This document shows, one piece after another, positions 1 to 34,508 of a stretch of 41,074 bases of DNA (position 1 is its first letter; every line of letters starts with the position of its first letter). Source of the stretch: Alphaproteobacteria bacterium (GTDB lineage Bacteria; Pseudomonadota; Alphaproteobacteria; Rhodobacterales; Rhodobacteraceae); NCBI GenBank assembly GCA_030432315.1, contig JAUIHM010000020.1, positions 1 through 41,074 on the forward strand. The letters are read 5' to 3'. A program made the translations under genes and the position numbers. The notes beneath the pieces were generated by a model. That model was not told the DNA's origin, made no database searches, and saw only the letters and a list, made by a program, of their open reading frames with translations.

Positions 1-466
1 CCCAGACCGAGCCGGCCAGCCCCATCAGGCCCAGCATCCGCGCCATCGGGATCAGCACCATCTGGAACGGGATGAAACAGCCGAACAGCAGCAGGCCGAA
101 CACCCAGGTGTCGCCGTGAAACCGCCACTTGGTCAGAACGTAGCCGTTCAGCGCCCCGAGCACGGTCGAGATCGCAACCGCCGGCACCACCATCAGGATC
201 GAATTGAGGAAAAACGGCTTAAGCCCCGTTGCCGCGACACCGATCTGTGCCGTCGACCAGGCGCTGGCCCAGGGCGCGAGCGTCCAGTCCTGCGGCAGCG
301 ACATCATGCCGCCGGCCTGGATCTCGCTGAGCGGCTTCAGAGAATTCACCAGCATCACATAGAGCGGCAGCAGGTAGTAGAGACAGAAGATCGCGAGCAC
401 CGTGTAGATCACGAAACGCGTACCGGCGCCGGTACGGATCACCTGGGATGAGGCAGCCGAGGACAT
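1..466 (-). CDS. Sugar ABC transporter permease, MalG/GtsC-like (partial)
   Basis: Inner-membrane permease subunit of a carbohydrate ABC importer. The translation runs from an ATG at 466 and is still open at the left edge, so the C-terminal half, with the EAA loop that contacts the ATPase, is missing. What is visible is typical of the MalG/CarB-type family: a short cytoplasmic N-terminus, a first membrane segment around residues 18-38 (FVIYTVLAIF followed by LLPLYVMLVNSLK), the PLSEIQ periplasmic region, then NSILMVVPAVAIST and the NGYVLTKWRF motif. The start codon overlaps the stop of the upstream permease by one base (TGATG), which implies translational coupling. The ATPase gene is presumably beyond the edge; it is not seen. 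The family call is firm. The substrate is inferred from the binding protein next door. Confidence 0.9.
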   Translation of the reverse strand, partial: MSSAASSQVIRTGAGTRFVIYTVLAIFCLYYLLPLYVMLVNSLKPLSEIQAGGMMSLPQDWTLAPWASAWSTAQIGVAATGLKPFFLNSILMVVPAVAISTVLGALNGYVLTKWRFHGDTWVFGLLLFGCFIPFQMVLIPMARMLGLMGLAGSVW

Positions 467-1365
467 CACTTCTTCTCCCTGAGTTCGGACCAGATAAACG
501 GCACCATGATCGCCGCAATCGACATCAGCATGATCACCGCACTCGCGGCACCGATACCCATCTGGTTGCGGGTGAAAGTGTAGGAATACATGAAGGTCGC
601 CGGCAGTTCGGTTGCCGTTCCCGGCCCGCCGCCGGTCAGGGCGATCACCAGGTCATAGGACTTGATCGCCATGTGCGCGAGCACAACGAAGGCCGACATG
701 AAGGCCGGTCGCAGCTGCGGAATGACGATGCGCCGGTAAAGCGCGAAGGTCGAAGCGCCGTCGATCTGCGCCGCCTTCATCACCTCGTTGTCGATCCCGC
801 GCAGACCCGCGAGAAACATCGCCATCACAAAACCCGAAGTCTGCCAGACCGCGGCAATGACGATGGTGTAGATCGCCATGTCACTGTCCTTGATCCACTC
901 GAAGGTGAAACTTTCCCAGCCCCAGGACCGTACCACCGCCTGCAGACCGATGCCCGGATCGAGAAACCACTTCCACGCCGTACCGGTGACGATGAACGAC
1001 AGCGCCATCGGATAAAGGTAAACCGTCCGGATAAAGCCCTCGGCCCGGATCTTCTGATCGAGCAGGATCGCCAGCGCCAGACCGAGCGCACAGGAAATGA
1101 CGATATAGAGCGAGCCGAAGATCAGCAGGTTGTCCACTGCGATGCCCCAGGCACGCACCGAAAACAGCCGTTCGTAATTCTGCATCCCGACCCAGCCGAA
1201 GCTCGGAAGAATGCGGCTGTCGGTGAATGACAGGTAAAGCGTGAACAGGATGAAACCGTAGACAAAGATCAGCACGATCGCGAAACTGGGACTGAGCACC
1301 AGTCTGGGCAGCGCATTGCGCAGCCACTCCCTGCCGCCGATGCGGGACTGCATGGTCTGAGACAT
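466..1365 (-). CDS. Sugar ABC transporter permease, MalF/GtsB-like
   Basis: Partner permease of the same importer, 299 residues, normal for MalF-type permeases that lack the large periplasmic P2 loop. About six membrane helices are visible, beginning with FAIVLIFVYGFILFTLYLSF near residues 28-47. The binding-protein-dependent transport signature lies at about residues 187-215: GLRGIDNEVMKAAQIDGAST is the EAA loop with its conserved G and the AAxxDGA core. The translation then continues with FRR-like arginine-rich residues and PQLRPAF. It lies between the binding protein (56-bp gap holding a hairpin) and the second permease (one-base overlap). It resembles the glucose/mannose GtsB group more than maltose MalF, but exact specificity cannot be read from a permease. 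Confidence 0.92.
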   Translation of the reverse strand: MSQTMQSRIGGREWLRNALPRLVLSPSFAIVLIFVYGFILFTLYLSFTDSRILPSFGWVGMQNYERLFSVRAWGIAVDNLLIFGSLYIVISCALGLALAILLDQKIRAEGFIRTVYLYPMALSFIVTGTAWKWFLDPGIGLQAVVRSWGWESFTFEWIKDSDMAIYTIVIAAVWQTSGFVMAMFLAGLRGIDNEVMKAAQIDGASTFALYRRIVIPQLRPAFMSAFVVLAHMAIKSYDLVIALTGGGPGTATELPATFMYSYTFTRNQMGIGAASAVIMLMSIAAIMVPFIWSELREKK

Positions 1366-1387
1366 TGGGATCCCTCCGGGAAGGACG

Positions 1388-1410
1388 GAGGGGCGGCTGA
1401 TCCGCCCCTC
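1388..1410 (-). promoter_or_regulatory. Intercistronic hairpin between binding protein and permease genes
   Basis: A perfect 9-bp stem (GAGGGGCGG / CCGCCCCTC) with a 5-base loop lies 11 bases after the stop codon of the binding-protein gene and before the first permease. No T-run follows, so it is unlikely to be a full terminator. Such stems are common after the binding-protein gene of ABC importer operons. They protect the upstream message or weaken read-through, so that the binding protein is made in excess. That role here is inferred from position. Confidence 0.6.
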
Positions 1411-1421
1411 ACTCTTTTCGT

Positions 1422-2672
1422 CTACTGGGACAGTTCGACTGCACTGACCATTTCTTCGACGGCGGTTTCGGAATCGAACTCGCCATTGAACTGGGCGGTG
1501 ATGACGTCATACATCGCGTTCTTGACCGATGCCGGGTTGGCATGACCATGCGCCATCGACCCGAAAAGGTTGCCGGAAGACGACGCCGCCTTCAGATCAG
1601 CATAGGCCTTCTGGCCACAGGCATCGAAGGTCTCGACTGACACGTCGGTCCGCGCCGGAACAGAACCCTTGACCGTGTTGAAGGCGATCTGGAACTCGGG
1701 CGAAATCACCGCCTCGGCGAGCGCAGCCTGCTCGGGCGAGACCTCGTCTCCCTGACTGAACACCGCGAACTGGTCGGTGTTGAAGGTCACCTGATTCTCG
1801 GTGCCGGGGAAACGGAAGCAGAGGAAGTCCTCATTTGGGACCTTGCCCGCGTTCAGGAACTCCCCCTTGGCCCAGTCGCCCATGAACTGGAACGCCGCAT
1901 CGCCGTTGATGACCATGGCGCTCGCGAGATTCCAGTCGCGTCCGGAGAAATTGTCATCCACATAGCCGCGGATAACGGTCATCCGGTCGAAAACCTCCTT
2001 CATCGTATCGGACCCGAGGGCTTCGGGATCGAGATCGATAAACGCCGCCTGATAGAATTCCGGCCCTCCGGTCGCCATCGCCACGGCGTCGAAGATCGTC
2101 GCGTCCTGCCAGGCCTGACCGCCATGTGCGACGGCGGTCTTGCCTGCGGCCTTCACGGCTTCCATGGCCGCGACCAGCTCGTCCCAGGTCGTCGGCTGGG
2201 CAATGCCAAGCTCATCGAGCAGCGGCTTGTTGGCCCACACCCAGTTGGTCGAGTGGATGTTGACCGGAACGGCAATCCATTCACCGTCATACTTGGAGAA
2301 TTTCTGCAGAGCCTCCGGCACCACCGCGTCCCATCCACCCTCTTCCGCAATCGGATTGAGGTTGGCGAGCGCGCCTTCCTTCGCCCAGTCAGTGATGTCG
2401 AAACCCAGCATCTGCACCGCCGCCGGTGCATTGCCCGAAGTCACCCGCGCCCGCAGGACGGTCATGGCCTGGGTGCCGCCGCCACCGGCAACAGGCATGT
2501 CCTGCCAGCCGATGCCCTGCGCCGCCAGATCCTCCTTGAGCACGTTGAGCGCCGATGCCTCGCCACCGGATGTCCACCAGTGCAGCACCTCGACATCCGC
2601 CGCCGCTGCCATGCTCGCCGAGGTGGCGAGCGCCGCCAGCGCCGTTACTGTTTTGCGCATTATTCTGTTCAT
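1422..2672 (-). CDS. Sugar ABC transporter substrate-binding protein, GtsA/MalE-like
   Basis: Periplasmic solute-binding protein of extracellular family 1, 416 residues. The chosen ATG at 2672 follows a good ribosome site (GGAGGAAG on the coding strand) and gives a classic signal peptide ([20 protein letters not shown], cleavage near AAA-AD at about residue 24). The open frame extends 30 codons upstream, but that stretch lacks signal-peptide character. The mature protein starts [20 protein letters not shown], followed by [18 protein letters not shown]. Both closely match the glucose/mannose binding protein GtsA rather than maltose MalE. It forms one importer with the two permeases downstream. 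It is preceded by the aldehyde dehydrogenase with a 52-bp gap, so uptake and catabolism share one operon. An aldose or sugar derivative is the likely ligand (inference). Confidence 0.92.
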
Positions 2673-2724
2673 CGTGTCTTCCTCCTTGTTGGCAGTCTCA
2701 GTTCCCGTTGACCCCGATCGAGGA

Positions 2725-4260
2725 TCAATCGGCCGTAATCCAGGGCGACCGGGTGCGGCCAATCCGCATCTGCACGGTTTTCACCTCCAGAAATTCCTCC
2801 AGCCCGTACCGGCCAAGCTCCCGGCCCTGGCCGCTTTCCTTGACGCCGCCAAACGGCAGTTCGGCGAAACCGTCCATCCAGGTGTTGGTCCAGACGGTCC
2901 CCGCCTGTACCGCCCGCGAAAACGCGAGGCAGGTGTGAACGCTCTCGCTCCAAACCCCGGCCGAAAGACCGTATGCCGCGTCATTCGCCAGCGCGACCGC
3001 CTCCTCGAAACTGCGGAACGTCAGCACCGAAAGCACCGGGCCGAACACCTCTTCGCGGGCAATTGCCATGTCACCGGTGACACCGGAAATTACCGTCGGC
3101 GCATAGAACTGCCCGGCAAGACCCGGCACCTCGAGGGGCGCCCCGCCCAGCCGAACCGACGCGCCCGCTTCAACCGCATCGCGGACATATTGGTCGATCT
3201 TCGCCTGATGCTCTCCCGAGACGACGGCCCCGACTTTCGTGGCCGGATCGAGCGGATCGCCAAACGCGACCCTGCGCGACAGCGCCACCACCCGTTCGGT
3301 GACCTCTTCGGCAATGTCCTCATGAACGATGATCCGCGACCCGGAATTGCAGCATTCCCCGGCGTTGAAATAGATGCCGAACACGACAGCATCCGTCGCG
3401 GAATCAAGATCGGCATCGGGAAACAGCACCTGCGGATTCTTGCCGCCCAACTCCAGCGACACCTTCTTCAGGGTCGGTGCCGCCGCGGCGACAATCGCCT
3501 TGCCCACCCCGGTCGAGCCGGTGAAGGTCACCATGTCGACCCGCGGGTCGGTGCTCATCGCCGCGCCCACCGGCTGGCCGTAGCCGAGAACAATGTTGAC
3601 CACCCCCGCCGGCAAACCCGCCTCCATCAGCAGTTCACCGAGAATAACGGTGGTCGAGGGCGTCAGTTCCGACGGCTTCACCACCGCGGTGCAGCCCGCA
3701 GCCAGGGCAAACGGCAGCTTCTGCGAGACGATCAGGAACGGAAAGTTCCACGGCGTGATGATCGCCGCGACACCAACCGGCTCCTTCAGCACCAGGCCCA
3801 GCATGTCGGCGCCAAGGCTGTTGTGGCTGTCCCCGTGCTGGGTGCGGGCAAGTGCCGCAGCATAGCGCCACAGATCCGCGGCCCCTTCGATCTCAGCCAG
3901 GGCCTGACTGATCGGCTTGCCCGATTCCAGCGTCTCGATGCGGGCAATCCGCGCCCGGTCCCGGTCGATCAGATCGGCCACCCGCAACAGCAGCGCCGCC
4001 CGCTCCCTGCCGCCCATATACCGCCAGCCACCGGCATCGAACGCCCGCCGCGCCGCGGCAATCGCCGCATCCACCTCTAGCCCGCCACCCCGCGCCGCCC
4101 GGGTCACCGGCGTGCCATGCGCCGGCGAGTGCCGCTCAAAGGTTGCCCCGTCAGCACTGTCACACCAGACCCCGTCGATCAGATGCCGCCCCACGAACGG
4201 CCCGGTCGGCAAACCCGACGGATCGGTCGCGGAAATCAGGGTGAAATCGTCGAGGCCCAT
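2725..4260 (-). CDS. NAD(P)+-dependent aldehyde dehydrogenase
   Basis: Oxidises an aldehyde to a carboxylic acid in the cytoplasm; 511 residues, within the usual range for the superfamily. Key residues are in place: the Asn of TPWNFPF at 172, Lys195 in [11 protein letters not shown] with Glu198 (which favours NAD+ over NADP+), the FTGSTGVGK nucleotide loop at 246-254, Glu270 in SLELGGKNP, and the catalytic Cys304 in [20 protein letters not shown] and the [13 protein letters not shown] tail motif are also present. The start follows GGGGAG inside the end of the enoyl-CoA hydratase gene, which ends 2 bp upstream, so the two are translated together. It lacks the features of CoA-acylating (IolA/MmsA) enzymes that I would expect, so a free acid is the likely product. 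The real substrate is unknown. Confidence 0.93.
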
Positions 4261-4262
4261 AT

Positions 4263-5030
4263 CTATCTCCCCGGAAACTCTGGTTTGCGCTTCGCGCGGA
4301 ACGCGGTCACACCCTCGGTGCGGTCCGCCGTGGCCGCGATCATCCCGCTGCCGAGCGCCTCGATCATCGCCGCACGGTCCTCACCGGCGCCGGCCTGAAG
4401 CATGTATTTCGCCACTTCCACCGCGCGCGGCGACAGCGTGGCCGCCTTCTGCGCAATCTCCCGCGCCGAGGCCCGCGCATCTTCCGCCACTTCCGCAACG
4501 AACCCGAGCGCCAGTGCCCGCTCCGCCGAAATCCTGCGGCCGAACAGCGCCATCTCCCGCACCACCGGCTCCGGCAGCAGCCGCGCCAGCCGCTGTGTCC
4601 CCGACCAGCCCGGTATGATGCCGACACCCGCCTCCGGCAGCGCCAGCGTCGCCCGCGGTGCCATCACCCTGATGTCGCAGGCGGCGGCCAGTTCAAGCCC
4701 GCCGCCGAATGCATGTCCCGAAATCGCCGCCACCGTCGGTTTCGACAGCCGCGCCAGCCGGTCGAACACCCGGTGGCCCTCCCGTACCCAGTGCCGGGCA
4801 AAATCGAACGGCCCGAGTTCCGACCAGGCGACAATGTCGGCCCCGGTACAGAACGCGCGATCTCCCTCGGCGGTGAGAATGACAGCCAGCACCGAAGGAT
4901 CGCGCTCCAGCGCCGCGCAATGCGCCTCCAGCGCTTCGATCATCGGCACGGTAAAGGCGTTCATTTTCGCCGGATTGTCGAGCCGCAACTCGGCAACCGC
5001 ACCCTCGATGCTCAGATGCAGCGCGCTCAC
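4263..5030 (-). CDS. Enoyl-CoA hydratase/isomerase family protein
   Basis: Crotonase-fold enzyme of 255 residues, standard length. The oxyanion-hole segments are FCTGADI (about 60-66) and GHAFGGGLELA (105-115). Both acid-base glutamates of true hydratases are at the expected places: Glu113 in GGGLELA and Glu133 in LPEAGVGIIPGWSGTQRL. This supports addition or removal of water on an enoyl-CoA/3-hydroxyacyl-CoA pair rather than a pure isomerase role. Translation starts at GTG 5030, overlapping the CoA-transferase stop by four bases (GTGA). Its place between a CoA-transferase and an aldehyde dehydrogenase in a sugar-import operon suggests that a sugar-derived acid is handled as a CoA thioester. 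The substrate is inferred, not shown. Confidence 0.92.
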   Translation of the reverse strand: MSALHLSIEGAVAELRLDNPAKMNAFTVPMIEALEAHCAALERDPSVLAVILTAEGDRAFCTGADIVAWSELGPFDFARHWVREGHRVFDRLARLSKPTVAAISGHAFGGGLELAAACDIRVMAPRATLALPEAGVGIIPGWSGTQRLARLLPEPVVREMALFGRRISAERALALGFVAEVAEDARASAREIAQKAATLSPRAVEVAKYMLQAGAGEDRAAMIEALGSGMIAATADRTEGVTAFRAKRKPEFPGR

Positions 5031-6601
5031 AGCACCAACCCCATCGGACCGGCCCCGAGCAGGCTGACCGGCATCAGCCGCGCATCCTCCGCCACCCGCA
5101 CCCGCCCCTGCGAGGCATCGACAATATCCCGCTGAGGATCGATCCCCGGCATCACCTCGGTGGCAACGAGTCCGCTCTCCGTCAGACGGATGACGCAGCG
5201 TTCCGTGACATAGAGCACCTCCTGCCCGGTCGCCCGCGCGCGCCGGCCCGAAAACGTTACATGCTCGACCGCTTCCACCATCTTCGCAAACCGGCCAGGC
5301 CCGCGAACCCGCAGCGCGGTATCGCCAGGCTCCAGATCCGCCCCGGCCTCGAACAGCCCGGCAGAAACGATCTTGCGTGCATGCGCCGTAATATCGACAA
5401 ACCCGCCGCAGCCCGCCGTCAGATACGGCTTCTTGCCAAGTTTCGAGACATTGACGTTGCCCTCGATGTCGATCTCAAGGAACGAAAGAAACGCCATGTC
5501 GAACCCGCCACCCTGGAAAAAGGTGAACTGGTTCGGCGACGGCACGTAGGCATCGGCATTCGACGCGCAGCCGAACGCAAACCCGGTCAGTGGCATGCCG
5601 CCGACAGCGCCCTGCTCAATCGCCCAGGTCACCGCCTGCGGATGCCCCTCCTCCAGCAGAATCCGCGGCACCATCGAACAGATGCCGAACCCGAGATTGG
5701 CGGTCTGACCCTGTTTGAGTTCCATCGCCGCCCGCCGGGCGACAATCTTCTCCACCCCCGGTTCGGCAAGGCTGAAACTCGACCACGGCCGCATGATTTC
5801 GCCCGAAATCGCCGGATCATAGAGCGTCTCCGTAGTCTGAAACTGGTCGGGGTCGACGACAACGAGGTCGACCAGATGCCCGGGCACCCGCACGTCATGG
5901 GGACGCAGCGATCCCGCCGCCGTCACCCGCTTGACCTGGGCAATCACCAGCCCGCCCCGGTTGCGCACCGCGATCGCCTGATCCAGACCGCCGAGATAGG
6001 CGCCCTCATGTTCATAGGTAAGGTTGCCGCGTTCGTCCGCCGTGGTTGCCCGCAGGATCGCCACATCGGGCACGATGTTCGGAAAATGCAGCCAGGTCTC
6101 GCCACCGAATTCTACCCGGTTGACAATCGGCCGCGCCGCCGCGCGGGCGTTCATTGCGCAGCCTTCGCGGATCGGATCGGCGAAGGTGTCCAGCCCCACC
6201 TGGGTCAGCACCCCGGGCCGCCGGGCGGCAACGTCCCGGTGCATGTCGAACAGAATGCCCGAAGGCACGTTGTAGGCGGCGATCCGATCCTCCACCACCA
6301 TCTTCCAGATTTCCGGCATCGGCAGCGATGACGGCCCGCTGGGATAGGACCCGGCGATCACCGTGCCGATCAGGCCGTCCTTGGCGATATGGTCAATGCC
6401 TTTGATCCCGTACATGTCACCGGCGGCGATAGGATGCAGGCAGGTCAGATTGCGCGGATGTCCCTCCGCGTCGAACCGCGCGCCGATTGCTGCCAGCACC
6501 CGATCCGGGCATCCAAGCCCCGAGGACGACGAAACCGTCACCACCGCATCATCGGCGATTCGCGCTACCGCCGCTTCGGCCGATACGATCTTCGACGCCA
6601 T
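5027..6601 (-). CDS. Family I acyl-CoA:carboxylate CoA-transferase (YdiF-type, fused subunits)
   Basis: Moves CoA from a donor thioester to a carboxylate through a glutamyl-CoA intermediate. At 524 residues it is a single-chain fusion of alpha and beta halves, as in E. coli YdiF and propionate CoA-transferases. The N-terminal half has VSSSSGLGCPDRVLAAIG and the GDMYGIKGIDH region. The C-terminal half has the NLGFGICSMVP segment and the active-site Glu329 in WAIEQGAVGG, which aligns with the E-(S/Q)-G of the family. FFQGGGFDMAFL is also typical. The start ATG at 6601 is preceded by AGGA and lies 3 bp after the oxidoreductase stop. The carboxylate acceptor is likely the acid made by the pathway encoded here (inference). 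Confidence 0.92.
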   Translation of the reverse strand: MASKIVSAEAAVARIADDAVVTVSSSSGLGCPDRVLAAIGARFDAEGHPRNLTCLHPIAAGDMYGIKGIDHIAKDGLIGTVIAGSYPSGPSSLPMPEIWKMVVEDRIAAYNVPSGILFDMHRDVAARRPGVLTQVGLDTFADPIREGCAMNARAAARPIVNRVEFGGETWLHFPNIVPDVAILRATTADERGNLTYEHEGAYLGGLDQAIAVRNRGGLVIAQVKRVTAAGSLRPHDVRVPGHLVDLVVVDPDQFQTTETLYDPAISGEIMRPWSSFSLAEPGVEKIVARRAAMELKQGQTANLGFGICSMVPRILLEEGHPQAVTWAIEQGAVGGMPLTGFAFGCASNADAYVPSPNQFTFFQGGGFDMAFLSFLEIDIEGNVNVSKLGKKPYLTAGCGGFVDITAHARKIVSAGLFEAGADLEPGDTALRVRGPGRFAKMVEAVEHVTFSGRRARATGQEVLYVTERCVIRLTESGLVATEVMPGIDPQRDIVDASQGRVRVAEDARLMPVSLLGAGPMGLVL

Positions 6602-6604
6602 GAC

Positions 6605-7603
6605 CTAGAATCCTCCATAGCTGACGGGTGTGGCCTGACCACTGACCGCCGCCTCGCGTACCGCAAGGGCCACGGCGAGCGACTTGACCCCGTCGACCCC
6701 GTCCGCCGCCACCCGGCCCCGGCCGGCGACCGCATCGGCAAACAGCGACACCGCGCGGCCATAAAGATCATGCCGGTCGAATGCGACTTCGTGCCGGCCT
6801 TCACCATTGACCAGAACCACCCCGCCAAGCGGCTTCTGCGTCATGATACCGGTGCCCAGGATCGACCCTTCGGTGCCGTGCACCTCCAACCCTGATCCGG
6901 CAAACGGATGGGTGAAACTCTCATGGGTCTGCACCATCGCCCCGGACGGCATTGACCAGACCGACATCACGCTGTCCTCAACCCCCTGGCCCATCCCGGA
7001 CGAAGTCGCCCGCGCGGAAACCTCGACCGGATCCTCGCCCAGATGGAACCGCACCGTATCCGCGTCATGCACGACAATATCCGGAATCACTCCGCCGCCG
7101 GCCGCGGCATCATTGATCCGCCAGCCCTGCAGATGCGCCGGCAGATGCACCGCGTGGAACACCCGCACGCTCAGAACCCGTCCGACCCGCCCGGTAGCGA
7201 TCAGATCGCGAATCGCCAGATGCGCTCCGGCATTGCGCAGATGGTGATTGGTGGCGAAGGTGACACCGGCCGCCTGTGCCGCGCGCACCATTTCGACCGC
7301 CTCATCAAGGGTCATTGCCAGCGGCTTCTCGCACAGAACGTGTTTGCCCGCGGCAATCGCCGCCATGGCCTGGGCATGATGCTTTTCGTTGGTGGTGGAA
7401 ATATAGACCGCATCCAGCGACCGATCGGCGAGCAGCGCGGCAAGGTCGGCGGTGCTGTGGGCAATGTCATGCTTCGCGGCATAGTCGGCGCCCCGCGTCT
7501 CACTGGAACTGAGCACCGAAACGATCTCGTGCCCCGCGGCCCGAATGGCCCCGATCACGTATTCCGACGCAATCGTGCTTGCTCCAACGAGCCCCCACTT
7601 CAT
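6605..7603 (-). CDS. Gfo/Idh/MocA family NAD(P)-dependent oxidoreductase
   Basis: Sugar or sugar-derivative dehydrogenase family, 332 residues. It has an N-terminal Rossmann fold (MKWGLVGAST, residues 1-10), the hallmark EKP motif at 92-94 (VLCEKPLAMTLDEA), and the C-terminal domain with DIVVHDADTVRFHLG, where the His and Asp are the usual catalytic positions. The ATG at 7603 is chosen because it begins the Rossmann strand and follows a purine-rich stretch (GGGGGAAGTGGG). The open frame upstream (20 more codons) would run through the operators. It is the first gene of the operon, directly behind the promoter with paired operators. It probably oxidises the imported sugar or an early product. 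The exact substrate cannot be told. Confidence 0.92.
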   Translation of the reverse strand: MKWGLVGASTIASEYVIGAIRAAGHEIVSVLSSSETRGADYAAKHDIAHSTADLAALLADRSLDAVYISTTNEKHHAQAMAAIAAGKHVLCEKPLAMTLDEAVEMVRAAQAAGVTFATNHHLRNAGAHLAIRDLIATGRVGRVLSVRVFHAVHLPAHLQGWRINDAAAGGGVIPDIVVHDADTVRFHLGEDPVEVSARATSSGMGQGVEDSVMSVWSMPSGAMVQTHESFTHPFAGSGLEVHGTEGSILGTGIMTQKPLGGVVLVNGEGRHEVAFDRHDLYGRAVSLFADAVAGRGRVAADGVDGVKSLAVALAVREAAVSGQATPVSYGGF

Positions 7604-7619
7604 CCCACTTCCCCCGCTT

Positions 7620-7633
7620 TTGTATCGTTCCAA
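7620..7633 (-). promoter_or_regulatory. Operator O2, LacI-type half-palindrome over the start of transcription
   Basis: On the coding (minus) strand this reads TTGGAACGATACAA, an imperfect palindrome with a central CG (10 of 14 positions symmetric), as in LacI/GalR-family sites. It repeats the core ATTTGGAACGAT of the site 21 bp upstream and covers the predicted +1. No regulator gene is in view. The family assignment is inferred from the central CG and AA/TT arms. Confidence 0.6.
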
Positions 7634-7634
7634 A

Positions 7635-7663
7635 TTTTTATTAGATCGTTCCAAATGAGTCAA
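7635..7663 (-). promoter_or_regulatory. Sigma70-like promoter of the catabolic operon
   Basis: On the minus strand, a TTGACT -35 box (7658-7663), a 17-bp spacer and a TAAAAA -10 box (7635-7640) lie 32 bp upstream of the oxidoreductase start codon, in a notably AT-rich patch. One operator fills the spacer and the next follows the -10 box, the layout expected of a repressed promoter. The prediction is from consensus match only. Confidence 0.6.
7641..7654 (-). promoter_or_regulatory. Operator O1, LacI-type half-palindrome in the promoter spacer
   Basis: On the minus strand this reads TTGGAACGATCTAA, symmetric at 10 of 14 positions about a central CG. It lies wholly between the -35 and -10 boxes. 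It shares a 12-base identical core with O2; the centres are exactly 21 bp apart, two turns of helix, so two dimers would bind on the same face. Confidence 0.6.
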
Positions 7664-7743
7664 TACATATTTTCACCCACCTCGGGCAGCGACTCGCAGT
7701 TTTTCTGCCGAACCGCGAAAATTTTGGACCGGACGCCGAAACG

Positions 7744-7772
7744 GAAAAGGGCCGGTGCATTGCACCGGCCCT
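7744..7772 (-). terminator. Rho-independent terminator of rhlE
   Basis: A near-perfect palindrome (stem AGGGCCGGTGCA / TGCACCGGCCCT, 7748-7772) is followed on the minus strand by TTTTCC. It lies 31 bp past the rhlE stop codon and before the catabolic operon promoter, so it insulates the two units. Confidence 0.85.
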
Positions 7773-7802
7773 AGAAGATCTTCGTCTGTTCCGAAAAGCG
7801 GC

Positions 7803-9110
7803 CTAGGCCGCTCCGCCGCTCTGCCTGCGGCCACCATGGGCGCCCTGGCCATGGTTCGCGCCACCCGGACGGCCCTTGCTGCGCACCCGACGCGGCCGGT
7901 TGCCCGGTTTCGCGCCGGCGGGTTTGCCCGCACCGTTCTTGCCCGCTGGCGGCACTTCCGACGGCGCCCGCTGCACCGTCATGCCCTCCGGCAGGTCAAG
8001 CAACACCGGCTTCTGCCGCGTCAGCTTCTCGATGTCGCGCATATAGGGACGCTCGTCACCGGCCACGAAGGAAATCGACTTTCCGTCCGCCCCGGCCCGC
8101 GCGGTCCGACCGATCCGGTGCACATACTGCTCCGCCACGTTGGGGATCTCGAAATTGATGACGTGGCTGACCCCCGGCACGTCGACACCGCGCGCGGCAA
8201 TGTCGGTTGCAACCAGCACCTTGTTGTAGCCCGACTTGAACGCGGCCAGCGCTTTCTCGCGCTGCGGCTGGCTCTTGTTGCCGTGGATCGCGGCGGATTT
8301 GAACCCGGAAGCCTCCAGTTTCTTCACCACCCGGTCAGCCCCATGCTTGGTGCGGGTAAACACCAGCACCCGATCGATCTCTTCGGTCCGAAGCACATGA
8401 TGCAGCAGGTCCTGCTTCTCGCCTGCGGTGACAAAATAGGCCTGCTGCAGCACCCGCTCCGCGGTCGTCGACGGCGGTGCCACCGACACCTTCGCCGGAT
8501 CATTCAGGAACTGGGCGGCAAGCTGGGCAATCGCCGGCGGCATGGTCGCCGAGAAAAACAGTGTTTGCCGGCGGCGCGGCAGCAGCGGCACAATCCGGCG
8601 CAGCGCGTGAATGAAGCCGAGGTCCAGCATCTGGTCCGCCTCGTCGAGCACCAGCACCTCGACATTGTCGAGGTTCATCGCCTTGCGGTCGATCAGGTCG
8701 AGCAGCCGCCCCGGAGTCGCCACCAGCACATCCGTGCCGCGCTGCATCTGCTTGATGTGACGGTTGATGGTCACGCCGCCAAAAACGGTGCCCACCGACA
8801 GTTTGAGAAACTGGCCATAGGTCTTGAACGACTGGGCGATCTGCCCGGCCAACTCGCGGGTCGGCGCCAGAACCAGCACCCGCGTGCTCATTCGCGGCAG
8901 CGGACCCGGCGCCCGGCTCAGACGGTCGAGGATCGGCAGCGCGAAAGCCGCCGTCTTGCCGGTCCCGGTCTGGGCAATGCCCAGCAGGTCACGGCCCTGC
9001 AGAACCAGCGGGATCGCCTGGGACTGGATTGGGGTCGGGGTGGTATAGCCGGTCGCCTCGATCGCCTCGACAAGAGGCGCCGCCAGCGAGAGGTCGGAAA
9101 ATTTGGTCAT
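7803..9110 (-). CDS. rhlE: DEAD-box RNA helicase, RhlE type
   Basis: ATP-dependent RNA helicase of 435 residues. The Q motif (GYTTPTPIQSQ, 21-31), Walker A AQTGTGKT (46-53), PTRELAGQ (83-90), TPGR (132-135), DEAD (156-159) and SAT (187-189) mark the first RecA domain. ARGVDVPGVSHVINFE and HRIGRTARAG mark the second. From about residue 385 the chain becomes a low-complexity, Gly/Arg/Lys-rich tail, which is normal for RhlE and binds RNA. It usually acts in ribosome assembly and RNA turnover, often in the cold. The gene stands alone, with its own terminator downstream. Assignment to RhlE rather than another DEAD-box subgroup is likely but not certain. Confidence 0.9.
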   Translation of the reverse strand: MTKFSDLSLAAPLVEAIEATGYTTPTPIQSQAIPLVLQGRDLLGIAQTGTGKTAAFALPILDRLSRAPGPLPRMSTRVLVLAPTRELAGQIAQSFKTYGQFLKLSVGTVFGGVTINRHIKQMQRGTDVLVATPGRLLDLIDRKAMNLDNVEVLVLDEADQMLDLGFIHALRRIVPLLPRRRQTLFFSATMPPAIAQLAAQFLNDPAKVSVAPPSTTAERVLQQAYFVTAGEKQDLLHHVLRTEEIDRVLVFTRTKHGADRVVKKLEASGFKSAAIHGNKSQPQREKALAAFKSGYNKVLVATDIAARGVDVPGVSHVINFEIPNVAEQYVHRIGRTARAGADGKSISFVAGDERPYMRDIEKLTRQKPVLLDLPEGMTVQRAPSEVPPAGKNGAGKPAGAKPGNRPRRVRSKGRPGGANHGQGAHGGRRQSGGAA

Positions 9111-12082: not shown

Positions 12083-13237
12083 ATGCCCCTGAAACTCTCC
12101 CACGTCGTCGCCGGGTTTGTCGCGGTCCTCGTCGGCTACACCAGTTCCGTCGCCATCATCTTCCAGGCCGCCGAAAGCCTCGGCGCGTCCGGGGTCGAGG
12201 CCAATTCCTGGATGCTCGCCCTCGGCCTGGGCATGGGGATCAGCGGCCTGCTCCTCTCGATCCGTTTCCGAATGCCGATTCTTACTGCCTGGTCCACCCC
12301 CGGCGCGGCGCTGCTCGCCTTCGGCACCGAGGGCGTCACCCTGGCTGAAGCGACCGGCGCCTTCCTCTTCTGCGCCCTGCTGCTGATCCTGACCGGCGTC
12401 ACCGGCTGGTTCAACCGCCTGACCAGGATGATCCCCGCGCCGCTGGCCTCCGCCATGCTCGCCGGCATCCTGTTCCGGTTCGGCCTCGGCATCTTCACCT
12501 CAATTCCCGAACGACCCGCCCTCGTTCTGTCGATGTGCACCCTCTACCTGATCGGCAAACGCTGGTTCGGCCGCTTCACCATTCCCGCCGTGCTCGCCTG
12601 GGGTATTGCCTTCGCCATCTTCACCGGCGCAATCGCCCCCGGCTCCCTGCCACCCCTCGAACTCGCCAAACCGGAATTCGTCATGCCCGCCTGGTCTCTC
12701 CAGGTCCTGCTCGGCGTCGGCCTGCCGCTCTGGATCGTCACCATGACCTCGCAGAACATGCCCGGAACCGTCGTGCTGCGCGAGGCCGGCTACACGCCGC
12801 CGGTCAACGCCGCGCTCACCGTCACCGGCCTGACCACCCTCATCCTTGCGCCGTTCGGCGGCTACGCCTTCAACCTCGCGGCGATCACCATGGCGATCTG
12901 CACCGGTCCCGACGCCGATCCCAACCCGACCACCCGCTACAGGGCCGCCATCGTCGCCGGCATCCTCTACTGCCTCGTCGGCCTGTTCGGCGCGACGGTG
13001 GTCAGCCTGTTCCAGATCGCCCCGCGCGAACTCGTCCTCACCATCTCCGGCCTCGCGCTGCTCGGCGCCATCGCCTCCAGCCTGAACACCGCCATCAGCG
13101 ACACGCAGAGCCGCGAGCCGGCGCTGATCACCTTCATGACCACCGCCTCCGGTCTCACCCTCTTCAATATCGGCGCCCCGTTCTGGGGCCTCGTCTTCGG
13201 CCTGGTCGCCGCCGCCCTGCTGCGCGCGCGACATTAA
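12083..13237 (+). CDS. benE: BenE-family benzoate/H+ symporter-like transporter
   Basis: Inner-membrane transporter of 384 residues, very hydrophobic, with about 11-12 membrane helices. The family pattern is clear: GFVAVLVGYTSSVAIIFQAA near the start, MPILTAWSTPGAALLAF (about 74-90), and the conserved TMTSQNMPGTVVLREAGYTPP at about 222-242. It ends FWGLVFGLVAAALLRARH. BenE proteins move benzoate and related aromatic acids with protons, but many homologues are uncharacterised and no benzoate catabolism genes are near. It is paired with the divergent XRE-cupin regulator and has no downstream partner. The family is certain; the substrate is not. Confidence 0.9.
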   Translation: MPLKLSHVVAGFVAVLVGYTSSVAIIFQAAESLGASGVEANSWMLALGLGMGISGLLLSIRFRMPILTAWSTPGAALLAFGTEGVTLAEATGAFLFCALLLILTGVTGWFNRLTRMIPAPLASAMLAGILFRFGLGIFTSIPERPALVLSMCTLYLIGKRWFGRFTIPAVLAWGIAFAIFTGAIAPGSLPPLELAKPEFVMPAWSLQVLLGVGLPLWIVTMTSQNMPGTVVLREAGYTPPVNAALTVTGLTTLILAPFGGYAFNLAAITMAICTGPDADPNPTTRYRAAIVAGILYCLVGLFGATVVSLFQIAPRELVLTISGLALLGAIASSLNTAISDTQSREPALITFMTTASGLTLFNIGAPFWGLVFGLVAAALLRARH

Positions 13238-14766: not shown

Positions 14767-16275
14767 CTAAGGTGCCCCGATCCCCAACCGGTCGAACGCC
14801 TCCGGTGGCGCATCACAGGCTGCCATCAGCTCCGCCATGATCCGCGTCATCCGCGCTTCCAGGGCCGCATCCTCCAGCGGTTCCACCTGACCCGGGTCGG
14901 TCAGCAGATCGAACAGCCGCGTCTCCGATTCCAGCAGCACCCCCGGCCCGTAGCTCGCATTCATCGGTGAAGTTTCAATCACCGGCACCTTCAGCAGCTT
15001 CGCCCCCTGGGTGAAGGAAAACCCGTCCGACAGCGTCGCCCCGGCCAGTTCCTCCGGCGTGAACATGGCAAAAATATGCGTCGGCATCAGCGTATACTGG
15101 TAAATCTCCTGGGTCTTCATGTCCGGCGGATAGCGGTGGTAGGTGTACCGCCCGTCCGCCACGTTCACCGCCGCACCGAAATAGCCGAACAGCGCCGCCT
15201 CGCGCCGCGCCTGCCCGGCAAGCTGCGCCGCCAGCGACATGCCCATGCAGTGCTCCATCGGCTGCTGACCGAACAGATCACAGAACGTCGCCGGCAGGTC
15301 GATCATCTGCGTCACCGCATCGCAGCGCGTCCCGGGTGCCGGCGCGCGCGGATCGTGGAAAAACAGCGGAATGCGGGCGATCTCCTCATACATGGTCATG
15401 CGGTTCTTGGCCCAGAAATCGTGCTCGCCGAGCAGGAACCCGTGATCCGTACCCACCACCAGCGCCGTATCCTCCCACATGTCATGTTCATCGAAGAAAT
15501 CCAGCACCCGCCCCAGATGCCGGTCGCACATCCTGGCCAGCGCGTAGTAGTTCTCCCGCAACTCCTCCGCTTCCTCCGGCAGTTCGTCCACCCGCCCGTA
15601 GGTCGGCCAGTCCCGCGTGCCCTGGTTCCATTCCGGCTTTGAGCGGTAATGCCGGGGCACCTGAAACGGCTCGTGCGGATCGAACGTCTCGATCTGCAGG
15701 TACCAGTTGTCCGCCTCCCGGTTCTCCTCCAGAAACGCAATCCCGGCATCGAACACCTTTGTCGACGGAAAATCCGCCTCCCCGACAATCGCCGTCCGGT
15801 TCAGAATCGCCTGCGCCTGGTAGTTTCGCCGGGCGTGTGACACCTGCGCCGGGTGATACGCCCCCGACAGCGCCTGCCAGTCCGGCGCCACCTTCGCCTG
15901 CCAGCGGTCCCCTTCCTGGCCCCGGACGAAGTCATAGCTGTCGTACCGGTTGTGATAGGTCGCCCCGCCATCCTCGAAATAGTGAAAATGATCCGTCACC
16001 AGGTGGCTGTAGACATTGCCGGTCCGGTGCAGGTGATCGGGAAACGCCTGGTCGAACGGCTCCAGCGGCCCCCAGGACCGGTGCAGGAACCCCAGCCGCC
16101 CGGTCATCAGATCCCGCCGCGCCGGGGCACAGGGCATCGAACCGATGTAGTGACTGTCGAAGGTCACCGACCGCGCCGCCAGCCGGGCGAAATTCGGCGT
16201 TTCGATCCGTGTGCCGCCATACGGCGTCAGCGCCCTGCGGTTCAGGGAATCGAACATCACAAATACGGTCTTCAT
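14767..16275 (-). CDS. Type I (formylglycine-dependent) sulfatase
   Basis: Hydrolyses a sulfate ester. 502 residues from the ATG at 16275, which follows a strong GGGAGGAAAGGC; an upstream extension of 55 codons looks like noncoding sequence. Metal ligands begin at VMFDSLNRR (Asp9). The active-site motif is CAPARRDLMTGR (49-60): Cys49 is the residue converted to formylglycine, with Pro51 and Arg53 conserved. VVGTDHGFLLGEHDFWAK carries the second set of metal and substrate residues. No signal peptide is present, so it should act in the cytoplasm. The maturing enzyme (FGE or anSME) is not in this window. A divergent phosphoribosyltransferase lies upstream. Substrate unknown. Confidence 0.93.
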   Translation of the reverse strand: MKTVFVMFDSLNRRALTPYGGTRIETPNFARLAARSVTFDSHYIGSMPCAPARRDLMTGRLGFLHRSWGPLEPFDQAFPDHLHRTGNVYSHLVTDHFHYFEDGGATYHNRYDSYDFVRGQEGDRWQAKVAPDWQALSGAYHPAQVSHARRNYQAQAILNRTAIVGEADFPSTKVFDAGIAFLEENREADNWYLQIETFDPHEPFQVPRHYRSKPEWNQGTRDWPTYGRVDELPEEAEELRENYYALARMCDRHLGRVLDFFDEHDMWEDTALVVGTDHGFLLGEHDFWAKNRMTMYEEIARIPLFFHDPRAPAPGTRCDAVTQMIDLPATFCDLFGQQPMEHCMGMSLAAQLAGQARREAALFGYFGAAVNVADGRYTYHRYPPDMKTQEIYQYTLMPTHIFAMFTPEELAGATLSDGFSFTQGAKLLKVPVIETSPMNASYGPGVLLESETRLFDLLTDPGQVEPLEDAALEARMTRIMAELMAACDAPPEAFDRLGIGAP

Positions 16276-16450
16276 GCCTTTCCTCCCGGTTTTTGCCGAT
16301 CCTGACGCGGCAGGCCGCTGCTGGCAACCACCCGCATGCCGCCGCCGCTTCCGTTGATATGGACGCGCCCCCGACGCCGCTGTATGGTCCGGCCACGTCG
16401 GACCCGGCCCGCCGGGGAGACGCGCAGCACAAGCAAACACTGGAACGCCG

Positions 16451-29961: not shown

Positions 29962-30792
29962 TCAGCCCACATCCGCGGCCCGGACCCACCAGCCCGGCCG
30001 CGCTGATGAAACGGCCCGGCGCGCCGCATCCGCTGTTTCCCGGTCGGCGAAGATGCCAAAGCATGTGGCTCCCGAACCCGACATCCGCGCCAGCAGACAT
30101 CCGGGCCGGGATCTCAGTTCCGCGAGGACCTCGCCGATCACCGGACAGATTTCAATCGCCGGTTGCTCCAGGTCATTGCGCTGACAGGTGAGATAGCCGC
30201 ACAGGTCCCTGACGTTGCGCAAACCCGCCAGCCCGCATAGCGGGGCATTGTCAGGGCATCCGAGACATCGGAATACGTCGCGTGTTGACAGAGGCACGCG
30301 AGGATTTGCCAGCACGATCGGGAACGGTGGCAGGTCCACCCCTTCCAGGAGGTCGCCGATACCCGACATTCGGGCTGATCGTCCTTCGAGACAAACCGGC
30401 ACGTCAGCGCCCAATGACAGGATACTCCGGGCCGATGGCATCGGTCTGGACCATACCCGTGACAGAAGCCTGAGCGTTGCCGCTGCGTCAGCCGACCCTC
30501 CGCCGACCCCGCCTGCAACCGGGAGTTCCTTGTAAAGGGTGAGTGCACCTGGCAAGGCGGGTGCATCGAACAGCCGCGCAGCCTTCAATACAAGGTTGTC
30601 GGCAGTTTCCAACCCCTCCAACCACGTTCCGGCTATACTCAGTGACAACTCCGCGGCAGGACAATACTCGACGAGGTCACCAATGCGCGGGAAAACCACC
30701 AGGCTGTCGAGAAGATGATATCCGTCCGCGCGCCGCCCTGTCACGTGGAGCGCCAGGTTGATTTTGGCGGGGGCCGCCTCACTGTCGATCAT
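29962..30792 (-). CDS. ispE: 4-diphosphocytidyl-2-C-methyl-D-erythritol kinase
   Basis: GHMP kinase of the MEP isoprenoid pathway; it phosphorylates CDP-ME at the 2-position. 276 residues. It starts with AAPAKINLALHVTGRRADGYH (Lys10 conserved). The ATP loop is PVAGGVGGGSADAAATL (91-107), the catalytic aspartate region is LGADVPVCL, and MSGSGATCFGIF is the third GHMP motif. It lies 12 bp after the TPR-protein gene and is probably its co-transcribed partner. The isoprenoid link with the adjacent polyprenyl synthase is functional but not an operon, as they converge. Confidence 0.94.
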   Translation of the reverse strand: MIDSEAAPAKINLALHVTGRRADGYHLLDSLVVFPRIGDLVEYCPAAELSLSIAGTWLEGLETADNLVLKAARLFDAPALPGALTLYKELPVAGGVGGGSADAAATLRLLSRVWSRPMPSARSILSLGADVPVCLEGRSARMSGIGDLLEGVDLPPFPIVLANPRVPLSTRDVFRCLGCPDNAPLCGLAGLRNVRDLCGYLTCQRNDLEQPAIEICPVIGEVLAELRSRPGCLLARMSGSGATCFGIFADRETADAARRAVSSARPGWWVRAADVG

Positions 30793-32600: not shown

Positions 32601-34259
32601 TCACATATTCGGGTAATTGGGCCCGTCTCCGCCCTGTGGCGTGACCCAGGTGATGTTCTGCGTCGGATCCTTGATGTCGCAGGTCTTGCAGTGAACGCAG
32701 TTCTGAAAATTGATCTGGAACCGCGGGTTACCTCCATCTGCGTCACGAAGCACCTCGTACACCCCCGCCGGACAGTATCTCTGCGCAGGTTCGGCATAAC
32801 GCGGCAGATTGATCCCAACCGGTATCTCCGCCATCTCCAGCGTCAGGTGCGCAGGCTGGTCCTCGGCGTGGTTCGTAAATGAAAACGCCACGTTCGTCAG
32901 ACGGTCGAATGAGAGAACGCCATCAGGTCTCGGATAGGCGATCGACTCATACCTCTCTGCCCGGCCGGTCGCCTCCGCATCGGTTTTCCAGTGCCGAAGC
33001 GTACCAAAAAGCGAACGGTTGGCGAAAATCGAATTCCACCACATGTCAAATCCGCCCGCGACAAGGGACGCAACCAGACCGTAGTCGGACCAGATCGGCT
33101 TGACGTTGCGCACTGGCTTGAGGTCTGCCGCGATTGGACCGTTCAGGACCGATGCGGCGTAGGACGTCAGTTCATCGCCCGACCGCTGTGCGGCAATGGC
33201 TTCATGGGCCGCTTCAGCCGCGGCAATGCCTGAAAGCATTGCATTGTGGTTGCCCTTGATCCTCGGCACATTGACAAACCCTGCGGAACAGCCGAGCAGC
33301 GCCCCGCCAGGAAAGGTCAGTTTCGGGATCGACTGCCAGCCGCCCTCGGATATTGCCCGCGCGCCATAGGCAATCCTCTTGCCTCCGGTCAGCACATCGG
33401 AAAACAGATGGTGATGCTTGAGCCGCTGAAACTCCATGTACGGATTGAGGTATGGATTGCGGTAATTGAGATGCACCACCAAGCCGACATACACCTGATT
33501 GTCCTCGGCGTGATACATGAATGAACCGCCTCCGGCAGTGCCTCCGAGGGGCCAGCCCATCGTATGCGTGACCTGGCCGAGACGGTGGACCTCCGGCCGC
33601 ACCTCCCAGATTTCCTTCATTCCGAGCCCGTATTTTTGCGGTTCCCGGCCCTCAGCAAGTCCAAACCGCTCGATCACCTGTTTCGAAAGACTGCCACGCA
33701 CTCCCTCCGACAACAGGACGTACTTGCCCAGAAGCTCCATTCCCGGCTCGTAATTTGGTCCGGGCTTCCGGTCGGCATTGAGCCCGAACTCACCCGCCAC
33801 CACCCCGGCGACCTCCCCGCCGTCACCATAAACGAGGGCGCTTGCCGCCATTCCAGGGAAAATTTCCACTCCCAGCGTTTCCGCCTGTTCCGCCAGCCAC
33901 CGGCAGACATTGGCCATCGAAACGATGTAGTTACCGTGATTGCCCATAAGTTTCGGCATCGGCCAGTTGGGTATCCTGATATCGCCCTTCTCTCCGAGGA
34001 AATAGAACCTGTCGGAGGAAACCTCCGTCCTGACCGGCGCGTTCCCGCCTCGCCAATCCGGGACAAGGCTGTCGAGCCCCACAGGATCCAGCACAGCGCC
34101 TGACAGAATGTGTGCGCCAACTTCGGAACCCTTTTCCAGCACGACGACCGTCAGATCCGCGTCAAGCTGCTTGAGGCGGATTGCGGCTGACAGTCCGGCA
34201 GGACCGGCGCCGACGATAACGACATCGTACTCCATCGACTCGCGTACGATTTCTGTCAT
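32601..34259 (-). CDS. Electron transfer flavoprotein-ubiquinone oxidoreductase
   Basis: Membrane-associated enzyme that passes electrons from ETF (fatty acid and amino acid oxidation) to ubiquinone. 552 residues from the ATG at 34259, which follows GGGGAG. The FAD site is YDVVIVGAGPAGLSAAIRL (11-29), and VLEKGSEVGAHILSGAVLDP is diagnostic. The 4Fe-4S ligands are Cys496 (YCPAGVY) and Cys521, Cys524 and Cys527 (NCVHCKTCDIKDP). The C-terminal GGDGPNYPNM is highly conserved. A promoter is visible upstream. The etfAB genes are not in this window. Confidence 0.95.
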   Translation of the reverse strand: MTEIVRESMEYDVVIVGAGPAGLSAAIRLKQLDADLTVVVLEKGSEVGAHILSGAVLDPVGLDSLVPDWRGGNAPVRTEVSSDRFYFLGEKGDIRIPNWPMPKLMGNHGNYIVSMANVCRWLAEQAETLGVEIFPGMAASALVYGDGGEVAGVVAGEFGLNADRKPGPNYEPGMELLGKYVLLSEGVRGSLSKQVIERFGLAEGREPQKYGLGMKEIWEVRPEVHRLGQVTHTMGWPLGGTAGGGSFMYHAEDNQVYVGLVVHLNYRNPYLNPYMEFQRLKHHHLFSDVLTGGKRIAYGARAISEGGWQSIPKLTFPGGALLGCSAGFVNVPRIKGNHNAMLSGIAAAEAAHEAIAAQRSGDELTSYAASVLNGPIAADLKPVRNVKPIWSDYGLVASLVAGGFDMWWNSIFANRSLFGTLRHWKTDAEATGRAERYESIAYPRPDGVLSFDRLTNVAFSFTNHAEDQPAHLTLEMAEIPVGINLPRYAEPAQRYCPAGVYEVLRDADGGNPRFQINFQNCVHCKTCDIKDPTQNITWVTPQGGDGPNYPNM

Positions 34260-34290
34260 GCTGACTCCCCTGGCAAAAAACGCTCCGTTT

Positions 34291-34319
34291 GGGTAACGTA
34301 TGCCTTGCCTGCCGGTCAA
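34291..34319 (-). promoter_or_regulatory. Sigma70-like promoter of the ETF-QO gene
   Basis: On the minus strand, TTGACC (34314-34319), a 17-bp spacer and TTACCC (34291-34296) would start transcription near 34284, about 25 bases before the start codon. Good -35 match, moderate -10. Confidence 0.5.
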
Positions 34320-34508
34320 TTGCACGAAGCCGTATTTCAGTCTGGCCGACCGGACTGCATCAGAAAATGCAAAAACGGTCCTTGCAGAGCGAAAAAAGGG
34401 TTAATACTGTTTCTTGCGTGCGAATAAGACTGCGCATGCCGGTCCGGGGCGTCTGCAACGGTCCGGTTTTGTTGTTTGCAGCCCCGGCGCAAGGAGAAAG
34501 AGACAAAT

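Follow-up and report, generated by a model that had tools for sequence, protein, structure and literature searches.

Gene Organization of the Locus

The window analyzed here comprises bases 1–41,074 of contig C146, from an alphaproteobacterial genome of 3.37 Mb (189 contigs, 86.6% complete). Seven frames at its start, all on the minus strand, form a locus in which four enzyme genes are followed by the genes of a sugar importer, and this locus probably serves the uptake and degradation of 1,5-anhydrohexitols, stable ring-shaped sugars like 1,5-anhydroglucitol that have no anomeric carbon. Pfam and NCBIfam assign these genes to the families given at first pass. Read in the direction of the genes, the features are:

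6605..7603, minus strand: Gfo/Idh oxidoreductase, orthologue of 1,5-anhydro-D-fructose reductase (AFR) (PDB matches; 57.7% identity to a Sinorhizobium meliloti operon protein)
5027..6601, minus strand: class I acyl-CoA transferase of the YdiF/FadX/propionate CoA-transferase type (Pfam, NCBIfam, PDB)
4263..5030, minus strand: enoyl-CoA hydratase/3-hydroxyacyl-CoA dehydratase, i.e., a crotonase (Pfam, NCBIfam, PDB 5zai)
2725..4260, minus strand: aldehyde dehydrogenase (Pfam, NCBIfam; conserved catalytic residues)
1422..2672, minus strand: solute-binding protein of a CUT1-type importer, glucose-binding-protein group (sequence and structural model)
1388..1410, listed on the plus strand: G+C-rich inverted repeat between the binding-protein and permease genes, perhaps an attenuator or a processing stem (8 terminator-like matches found, 5.8 expected)
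466..1365, minus strand: sugar ABC permease 1 (Pfam, NCBIfam)
2..469, minus strand: sugar ABC permease 2, first 156 residues, cut by the first base of the contig

The four enzyme genes are separated by gaps of 3, −4, and 2 bp, and 52 bp lie between the aldehyde dehydrogenase and binding-protein genes. The frame positions thus bear out a first-pass annotation of the window, which had described same-strand catabolic genes with these small gaps, and the catalytic residues that it had called intact are found at their places (Cys304 and Glu270 in the aldehyde dehydrogenase, Glu113 and Glu133 in the hydratase, Glu329 in the CoA-transferase, and EKP at residues 92–94 of the oxidoreductase).

A search with the GMC protein of a relative led to a second contig of the same genome, C42, which starts with the remaining 143 residues of permease 2 and continues with downstream genes on one strand. 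Its features (locus L133) are:

439–1548: UgpC-type ATPase
1551–3053: GMC1 oxidoreductase
3130–4722: GMC2 oxidoreductase
4812–5852: LacI regulator
5886–8009: FAD flavoprotein

We join the two contigs because the permease halves are complementary and because relatives have the same gene order; the ends overlap inexactly, a few bases differing between positions 1–60 of the window and 1–60 of L133. The sequences on either side of this break inside permease 2 thus differ slightly, as if strain variation had halted the assembly. The first-pass annotation had advised looking beyond the left edge for an ATPase, a regulator, a kinase, and an aldolase: the first two are present on C42, which has no 2-keto-3-deoxy-D-gluconate (KDG) aldolase or kinase.

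Recurrence in Other Genomes

Out of 579 loci, we compared the 80 with the most similar CoA-transferases; this choice favors close relatives, and at least two pairs derive from a single metagenome-assembled genome each. All nine genes, from the Gfo/Idh oxidoreductase, CoA-transferase, crotonase, and aldehyde dehydrogenase through the binding protein, the two permeases, and the UgpC-type ATPase to GMC1, occur in this order in 61 of the 70 loci whose sequence extends far enough on either side. The nine exceptions lack only the Gfo/Idh gene (four loci; L076, L089, L097, L108), only the aldehyde dehydrogenase gene (L078, L091), or the importer (L088, L112), and the last one, L073, retains the CoA-transferase and crotonase alone. 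This recurrence, which the first-pass annotation had proposed to look for, exceeds chance by far. Moreover, among 72 loci with enough flanking sequence, 69 have the importer and the enzymes, which it had read as one operon, in one place. In L112 (12336–13131), the start of the aldehyde dehydrogenase gene adjoins the end of GMC1, the importer being gone, and the junction resembles a deletion scar.

The carriers belong to Rhodobacterales and Hyphomicrobiales, Rhizobiaceae included, and in some of them, such as Roseibium porphyridii, the operon is plasmid-borne. To our knowledge, a CoA-transferase and a crotonase are rarely found in sugar operons, as had been remarked at first pass; within these two orders, however, the combination is widespread. 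Across 385 sampled genomes of the class the operon is uncommon: relatives of the CoA-transferase (1e-100) occur in 25, and in three of these (our genome, G154, and G164) the operon itself was seen. The CoA-transferase alone is ruled out as an operon marker, since only three of the eight places at which a protein of at least 59% identity is encoded in the 385 genomes lie in this operon (in these same three genomes); two lie in a set like that of the S. meliloti plasmid pSymA (G117, G272) and three elsewhere (G148, G327, G355).

Predicted Promoter, Operators, and LacI Regulator

Three features were found upstream of the Gfo/Idh gene:

7641..7654, minus strand: LacI-type operator 1, TTGGAACGATCTAA (one mismatch to TTGGAACGWTCCAA)
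7620..7633, minus strand: LacI-type operator 2, TTGGAACGATACAA (at most one mismatch to TTGGAACGWTCCAA)
7634..7663, minus strand: sigma-70-like promoter match, TTGACT-18-AAAAAT (not above chance alone)

The promoter match (7663–7634) overlaps the two operators, which are the only sites in the 3.37 Mb of the genome that fit the palindrome TTGGAACGWTCCAA with no more than one mismatch; a control pattern gave none. At least one such site (up to two mismatches) precedes the Gfo/Idh gene in 73 of 74 loci, as counted in upstream stretches of 200 bp, and at least two are present in 57 of these stretches, compared with 0 of 74 in single shuffles. A TTGAC box lies no more than 14 bp ahead of the first operator in 63 of the 73 loci having a site. 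The LacI protein encoded on C42 is 51–74% identical to operon-end LacI proteins of nine loci. Together, the operator pair, the TTGAC box, and the operon-end LacI gene make it very likely that the operon has a single dedicated LacI-controlled promoter. The one promoter of the first-pass annotation is in agreement with the operators that overlap the match, but the match by itself is at chance level (two found in 8 kb, 1.3 expected).

An Orthologue of 1,5-Anhydro-D-fructose Reductase

The Gfo/Idh protein gives its best PDB matches to two AFR structures, 4koa (E 5.1e-114) and 2glx (E 2.3e-113), the next best being at about 1e-21. Its S. meliloti relative occupies the same operon position, is annotated in record CP090106 as 1,5-anhydro-D-fructose reductase, and differs from 4koa, by eye, at one residue over the residues printed. 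The EKP motif, W161, R162, D175, and H179 are kept in 77 of 77 distinct Gfo rows (repeats removed); we take the last four to be active-site residues. Homology and synteny thus support the Gfo/Idh protein as an AFR orthologue over its full length, which would reduce 1,5-anhydrofructose (AF) to 1,5-anhydromannitol (AM) with NADPH, and this orthology points to 1,5-anhydrohexitols as the substrate class. The second structure, 2glx, is the enzyme of Sinorhizobium morelense (PMC5969746).

Other identities were rejected on NCBIfam scores, i.e., inositol 2-dehydrogenase (iolG, 120.5 bits for a cut-off of 355), levoglucosan dehydrogenase (92.6 bits for a cut-off of 650), and xylose dehydrogenase, for which the protein is far under the cut-off. 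Elsewhere, at locus L157 (genome G340), an AFR relative (46%) stands between aldehyde dehydrogenase and GMC genes, with no CoA genes, in what is possibly a shorter version of the oxidative steps.

The Sugar Importer

The model of the binding protein (pLDDT 86.5) is nearest to Oant_3817, solved with bound glucose (4r2b; Z 58.6, root-mean-square deviation 1.9, 392 residues aligned, 64% identity), and its first seven structural matches are all glucose- or galactose-binding proteins. With the two permeases and the UgpC-type ATPase, the last on C42, the set of a CUT1 glucose importer is complete. The GtsA-like sugar importer recognized at first pass is thus supported, and homology and synteny suggest that it takes up a glucose-like pyranose. 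It resembles the GtsA/ppGBP glucose importers in its binding protein, 45% identical to ppGBP, and differs from them in its operon partners and in one motif. Indeed, the QIKG of ppGBP and SAR11_0769 reads QMLG here, the lysine being replaced by Leu89 in 21 of 21 aligned rows; this change would suit a 1-deoxy sugar, if that lysine contacts the sugar O1. Since 1,5-anhydroglucitol (AG) is 1-deoxyglucose, a glucose-type pocket would be apt. AFR orthology and the glucose-type binding protein make 1,5-anhydrohexitols the best reading, and the operon probably handles AF, AM, and perhaps AG.

Oxidative and CoA-Linked Enzymes and the Proposed Route

The remaining enzymes show well-conserved catalytic residues (in the counts that follow, repeats of one gene were removed). 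The CoA-transferase (PF01144, CoA_trans), whose best solved relative is YdiF (2ahu), has Glu329 in 92 of 92 rows. The crotonase, with 3-hydroxypropionyl-CoA dehydratase as best solved relative (5zai, E 4.9e-50), keeps Glu113 and Glu133 in 89 of 89. The aldehyde dehydrogenase is an ordinary member of its family, with Cys304 and Glu270 in 78 of 78 rows; its nearest models are betaine-aldehyde and HpaE dehydrogenases, both under cut-off. GMC2 groups with primary-alcohol oxidizers (choline dehydrogenase, alcohol oxidases), and the closest relatives of GMC1 are FAD glucose and fructose dehydrogenases. Our genome also encodes a second CoA-transferase, 41% identical (G000, contig C98, 5154–6623).

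From these genes we propose the following route. AG would be oxidized to AF by a dehydrogenase (GMC1 here, perhaps a short-chain dehydrogenase/reductase (SDR) where present), and AF would be reduced to AM by AFR. A 1,5-anhydrohexitol has a single primary alcohol, at C6; GMC2 and the aldehyde dehydrogenase would oxidize this hydroxymethyl group to a carboxylate, giving 1,5-anhydromannuronate, whose CoA thioester would be formed by the CoA-transferase. As CoA would be handed to the next acid, no ATP would be spent. Because the C6 acid bears a hydroxyl on its beta carbon, C4 (alpha being C5), its thioester would be a 3-hydroxyacyl-CoA, i.e., the normal substrate type of such a dehydratase. The crotonase would then remove water across C4/C5 to give an enol ether, and addition of water at C5 would produce a hemiketal, opening the ring, which lacks an anomeric carbon, to a 2-keto-3-deoxy acid. 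From AM, the product would be KDG, the old C3 and C2 becoming C4 and C5 (stereochemistry worked by hand in Fischer projection); AG would give the L-threo isomer, 2-keto-3-deoxy-L-galactonate. Thus, the inversion at C2 by AFR would have a purpose, since AM and not AG gives KDG. Finally, KDG would be cut or phosphorylated and enter the Entner–Doudoroff pathway.

To the whole reading, i.e., a LacI-controlled operon that imports 1,5-anhydrohexitols and degrades them by a CoA route to KDG, we assign a probability of about 0.4. Its general form, in which CoA-dependent beta-elimination lets aerobic alphaproteobacteria break the ether ring of these sugars on the way to KDG, with AFR setting the stereochemistry, is more tentative still. 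The first-pass annotation had supposed that an imported sugar or polyol is oxidized, converted into an acid, loaded with CoA, and then hydrated or dehydrated; this succession fits our findings, but neither substrate nor pathway was named there. AFR orthology is what allows a substrate to be proposed, and genes beyond the window (the GMC genes and the operon tails of relatives) are what suggest the fate of the acid and its CoA ester.

Operon Tails of Relatives

In 7 of 9 genomes probed, a DUF993 gene stands directly after GMC2 or a Dabb gene and before the LacI gene, and a MOFRL-type glycerate kinase gene comes next in 4 of these 7 tails; such a kinase is also found in S. meliloti and G164. DUF993, of the aldolase superfamily, is annotated as belonging to the dihydrodipicolinate synthase family, and the lysine of a GIK motif, which the fold of that family also has, is kept in 16 of 16 rows, representing 13 genes. 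A different tail, LacI–Gfo2–FAD–KdgK, in which Gfo2 is another Gfo/Idh protein, is present in G154 and in two near-identical Thioclava, all without AFR and SDR, and in L097 the Gfo2–FAD–KdgK genes lie directly ahead of the CoA-transferase gene. The best NCBIfam model for the tail kinase is 2-dehydro-3-deoxygluconokinase (241–261 bits, cut-off 400). The best clue that KDG is the product comes from these two unrelated tails, both of which are compatible with it. Elsewhere, our genome has eda, over its cut-off, and a KdgK-like gene.

No locus among 64 has the SDR without Gfo. This co-occurrence is as expected if the SDR feeds AFR, and shared ancestry could be another cause. The SDR (1e-55) was not found in any of the eight genomes without an operon SDR, in a search run without a positive control genome.

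Two further observations concern the tail families. A DUF993 paralogue (53%) lies in our genome between genes for a Gfo/Idh protein and an AP_endonuc_2 barrel (L134:7863–11000, contig C152). The flavoprotein that follows LacI (L133:5886–8009) is of the FAD_binding_2 family (SdhA/FrdA-like) and is also found in L073, L097, L162, L163, and L164; in AFR-less relatives, it stands with Gfo2 and the KDG-kinase-like gene.

The glycerate kinase and SDR genes of some loci would also fit a pathway for a deoxy or branched sugar acid, similar to oxidative deoxyribonate breakdown, in which CoA esters would yield glyceryl or acetyl units and glycerate kinase would act last. Deoxyribonate breakdown is known to proceed from a sugar acid through a CoA-linked step and to finish with glycerate kinase (PMC6365646), and the pSymA paralogue of S. 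meliloti combines CoA-transferase, crotonase, glycerate kinase, acyl-CoA dehydrogenase, and SDR genes. However, the operon showed neither a beta-keto acid cleavage enzyme nor a thiolase, and KdgK and AFR would be left unexplained, so that we regard this explanation as very unlikely. The paralogous set, found in L116 (S. meliloti M162 pSymA) and L154, includes CoA-transferase, crotonase, glycerate kinase, SDR, and DUF993 genes together with a xylose-isomerase-like barrel and aldo-keto reductases, to which pSymA adds acyl-CoA dehydrogenase and electron-transfer flavoprotein (ETF) genes; it probably encodes a related pathway that acts on some other polyol or sugar acid.

Weighing the 1,5-Anhydrohexitol Route

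Several findings weigh against the proposed conversion of 1,5-anhydrohexitols to KDG. AFR (E 1e-40) is absent from seven whole genomes that have all or some of the operon (those of L073, L076, L079, L089, L097, L108, and G154), and hence AFR is not essential to the operon core. In four AFR-less genomes, the tail holds Gfo2, which is nearest to levoglucosan dehydrogenase (290–314 bits, cut-off 650); Gfo2 may substitute for AFR, or AFR-less carriers may use another substrate. Conversely, AFR relatives (1e-60) lie beside a CoA-transferase gene in two of five genomes (our own and G164), and have no adjoining CoA-transferase gene in G070, in G340, and on a short contig of G339. The aldehyde dehydrogenase is absent from L055, L073, L078, and L091, and GMC1 is constant in the core without having a firm role. 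As for the tails, the DUF993 model (from two sequences) is poor (pLDDT 48.1), the KdgK and glycerate kinase matches are under the NCBIfam equivalog cut-offs, and the operon of our own genome has neither DUF993 nor KdgK, only the FAD flavoprotein following LacI on C42. The proposed route assigns no enzyme to the hydration of the enol ether, and all of the chemistry proposed after AFR is deduced from the gene content. In a quick tree, the AFR-less rows fall inside AFR-bearing groups, with five changes of Gfo, one of them being the pSymA paralogue; with 30 weak inner branches out of 84, and two long ones joining, we read this only as a hint of repeated AFR loss.

The Gfo2 of AFR-less operons is one of the points in favor of a substrate such as a glycoside or another modified pyranose, the AFR orthologues acting on 2-keto aldoses or 3-keto glycosides, with the sugar released by keto-mediated beta-elimination and a CoA branch for the degradation of the aglycone acid. 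The resemblance of GMC1 to sugar dehydrogenases and a binding-protein group that binds glucose and galactose would agree with this. Nevertheless, glycosidases, lyase-type TIM barrels, and esterases are missing from the conserved set, the ligands of the importer group are monosaccharides, and the KDG-type tails would stay unexplained; a substrate of this kind therefore appears to us unlikely.

The account published for S. morelense also differs from the route proposed here, since AM is reportedly converted to mannose by C1 hydroxylation. If the operon followed it, AFR would reduce AF to AM, AM would be oxygenated at C1 to D-mannose, and the CoA genes would serve something else or a side product. 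GMC1, through its similarity to FAD glucose and fructose dehydrogenases, could in principle oxidize the C1 ether carbon. On the other hand, no operon P450 came up when the open frames of the loci, though not our whole genome, were scanned for a heme motif, the sole match being a 1112-residue frame in L108, far from the operon. Moreover, GMC2, the aldehyde dehydrogenase, the CoA-transferase, and the crotonase, which are more constant than AFR, would have no explanation. We consider mannose formation at this operon improbable and retain the CoA-linked route to KDG as our working interpretation.

Neighboring Genes

Upstream of the operon, on the same strand, lies a gene for an RhlE-like RNA helicase (7803–9110), separated from it by a strong terminator-like stem (7772–7748). 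Farther into the window, the neighbors are ordinary by their Pfam families: a BenE-type transporter (12083–13237), a sulfatase (14767–16440), a GHMP kinase (29962–30792), and an ETF-ubiquinone oxidoreductase (32601–34325).

Relation to Known Systems and Significance

AG serves as a marker of diabetes, and the neutropenia seen in glycogen storage disease type 1b (GSD1b) and in G6PC3 deficiency is caused by AG 6-phosphate. With the AF catabolism of S. morelense, the operon shares an orthologous reductase, which S. meliloti has at the same operon position; the next step there is reportedly C1 hydroxylation to mannose, whereas we propose C6 oxidation and a CoA branch. The substrate class is also that of the anaerobic breakdown of AG and AM by gut bacteria, which, according to a review, relies on a phosphotransferase system (PTS) and on the glycyl-radical enzymes YbiW and PflD (PMC12441222). 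In contrast, import here would be by an ABC transporter, with no initial phosphorylation and with oxidative enzymes, and no PTS or glycyl-radical gene is among the operon genes identified. The Entner–Doudoroff node (KdgK and Eda, or KDG aldolase and glycerate 2-kinase) is echoed by the tails of relatives, with their KdgK or DUF993 and glycerate kinase; in that known pathway KDG arises by gluconate dehydration, whereas we propose its formation from a ring ether via a CoA ester. Finally, the oxidative deoxyribose/deoxyribonate pathway is similar in its sugar acid, CoA-linked step, and glycerate kinase but uses a beta-keto acid cleavage enzyme in place of the CoA-transferase and crotonase (PMC6365646).

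Among the papers listed in searches of the openly licensed literature, which leaves most subscription papers outside, none describes such an operon or links AFR with a CoA-transferase or a crotonase; DUF993 is unmentioned there, and absence from this literature says little. Hence, the reductase and the substrate class are known, and the route is probably undescribed so far. The 2025 review states that no enzyme is known to act aerobically on AG and describes the step after AFR in rhizobia as still unidentified and P450-like (PMC12441222). The operon offers concrete candidates for an aerobic AG route, GMC1, GMC2, and the SDR included. If our interpretation is true, it would fill the step after AFR, provide a new way to degrade a sugar that has no anomeric carbon, and supply the missing aerobic route for AG. 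It would also mean that crotonase chemistry can open a sugar ether ring, give DUF993 a function, and correct the annotation of many genes that are now labelled as fatty-acid or inositol enzymes.

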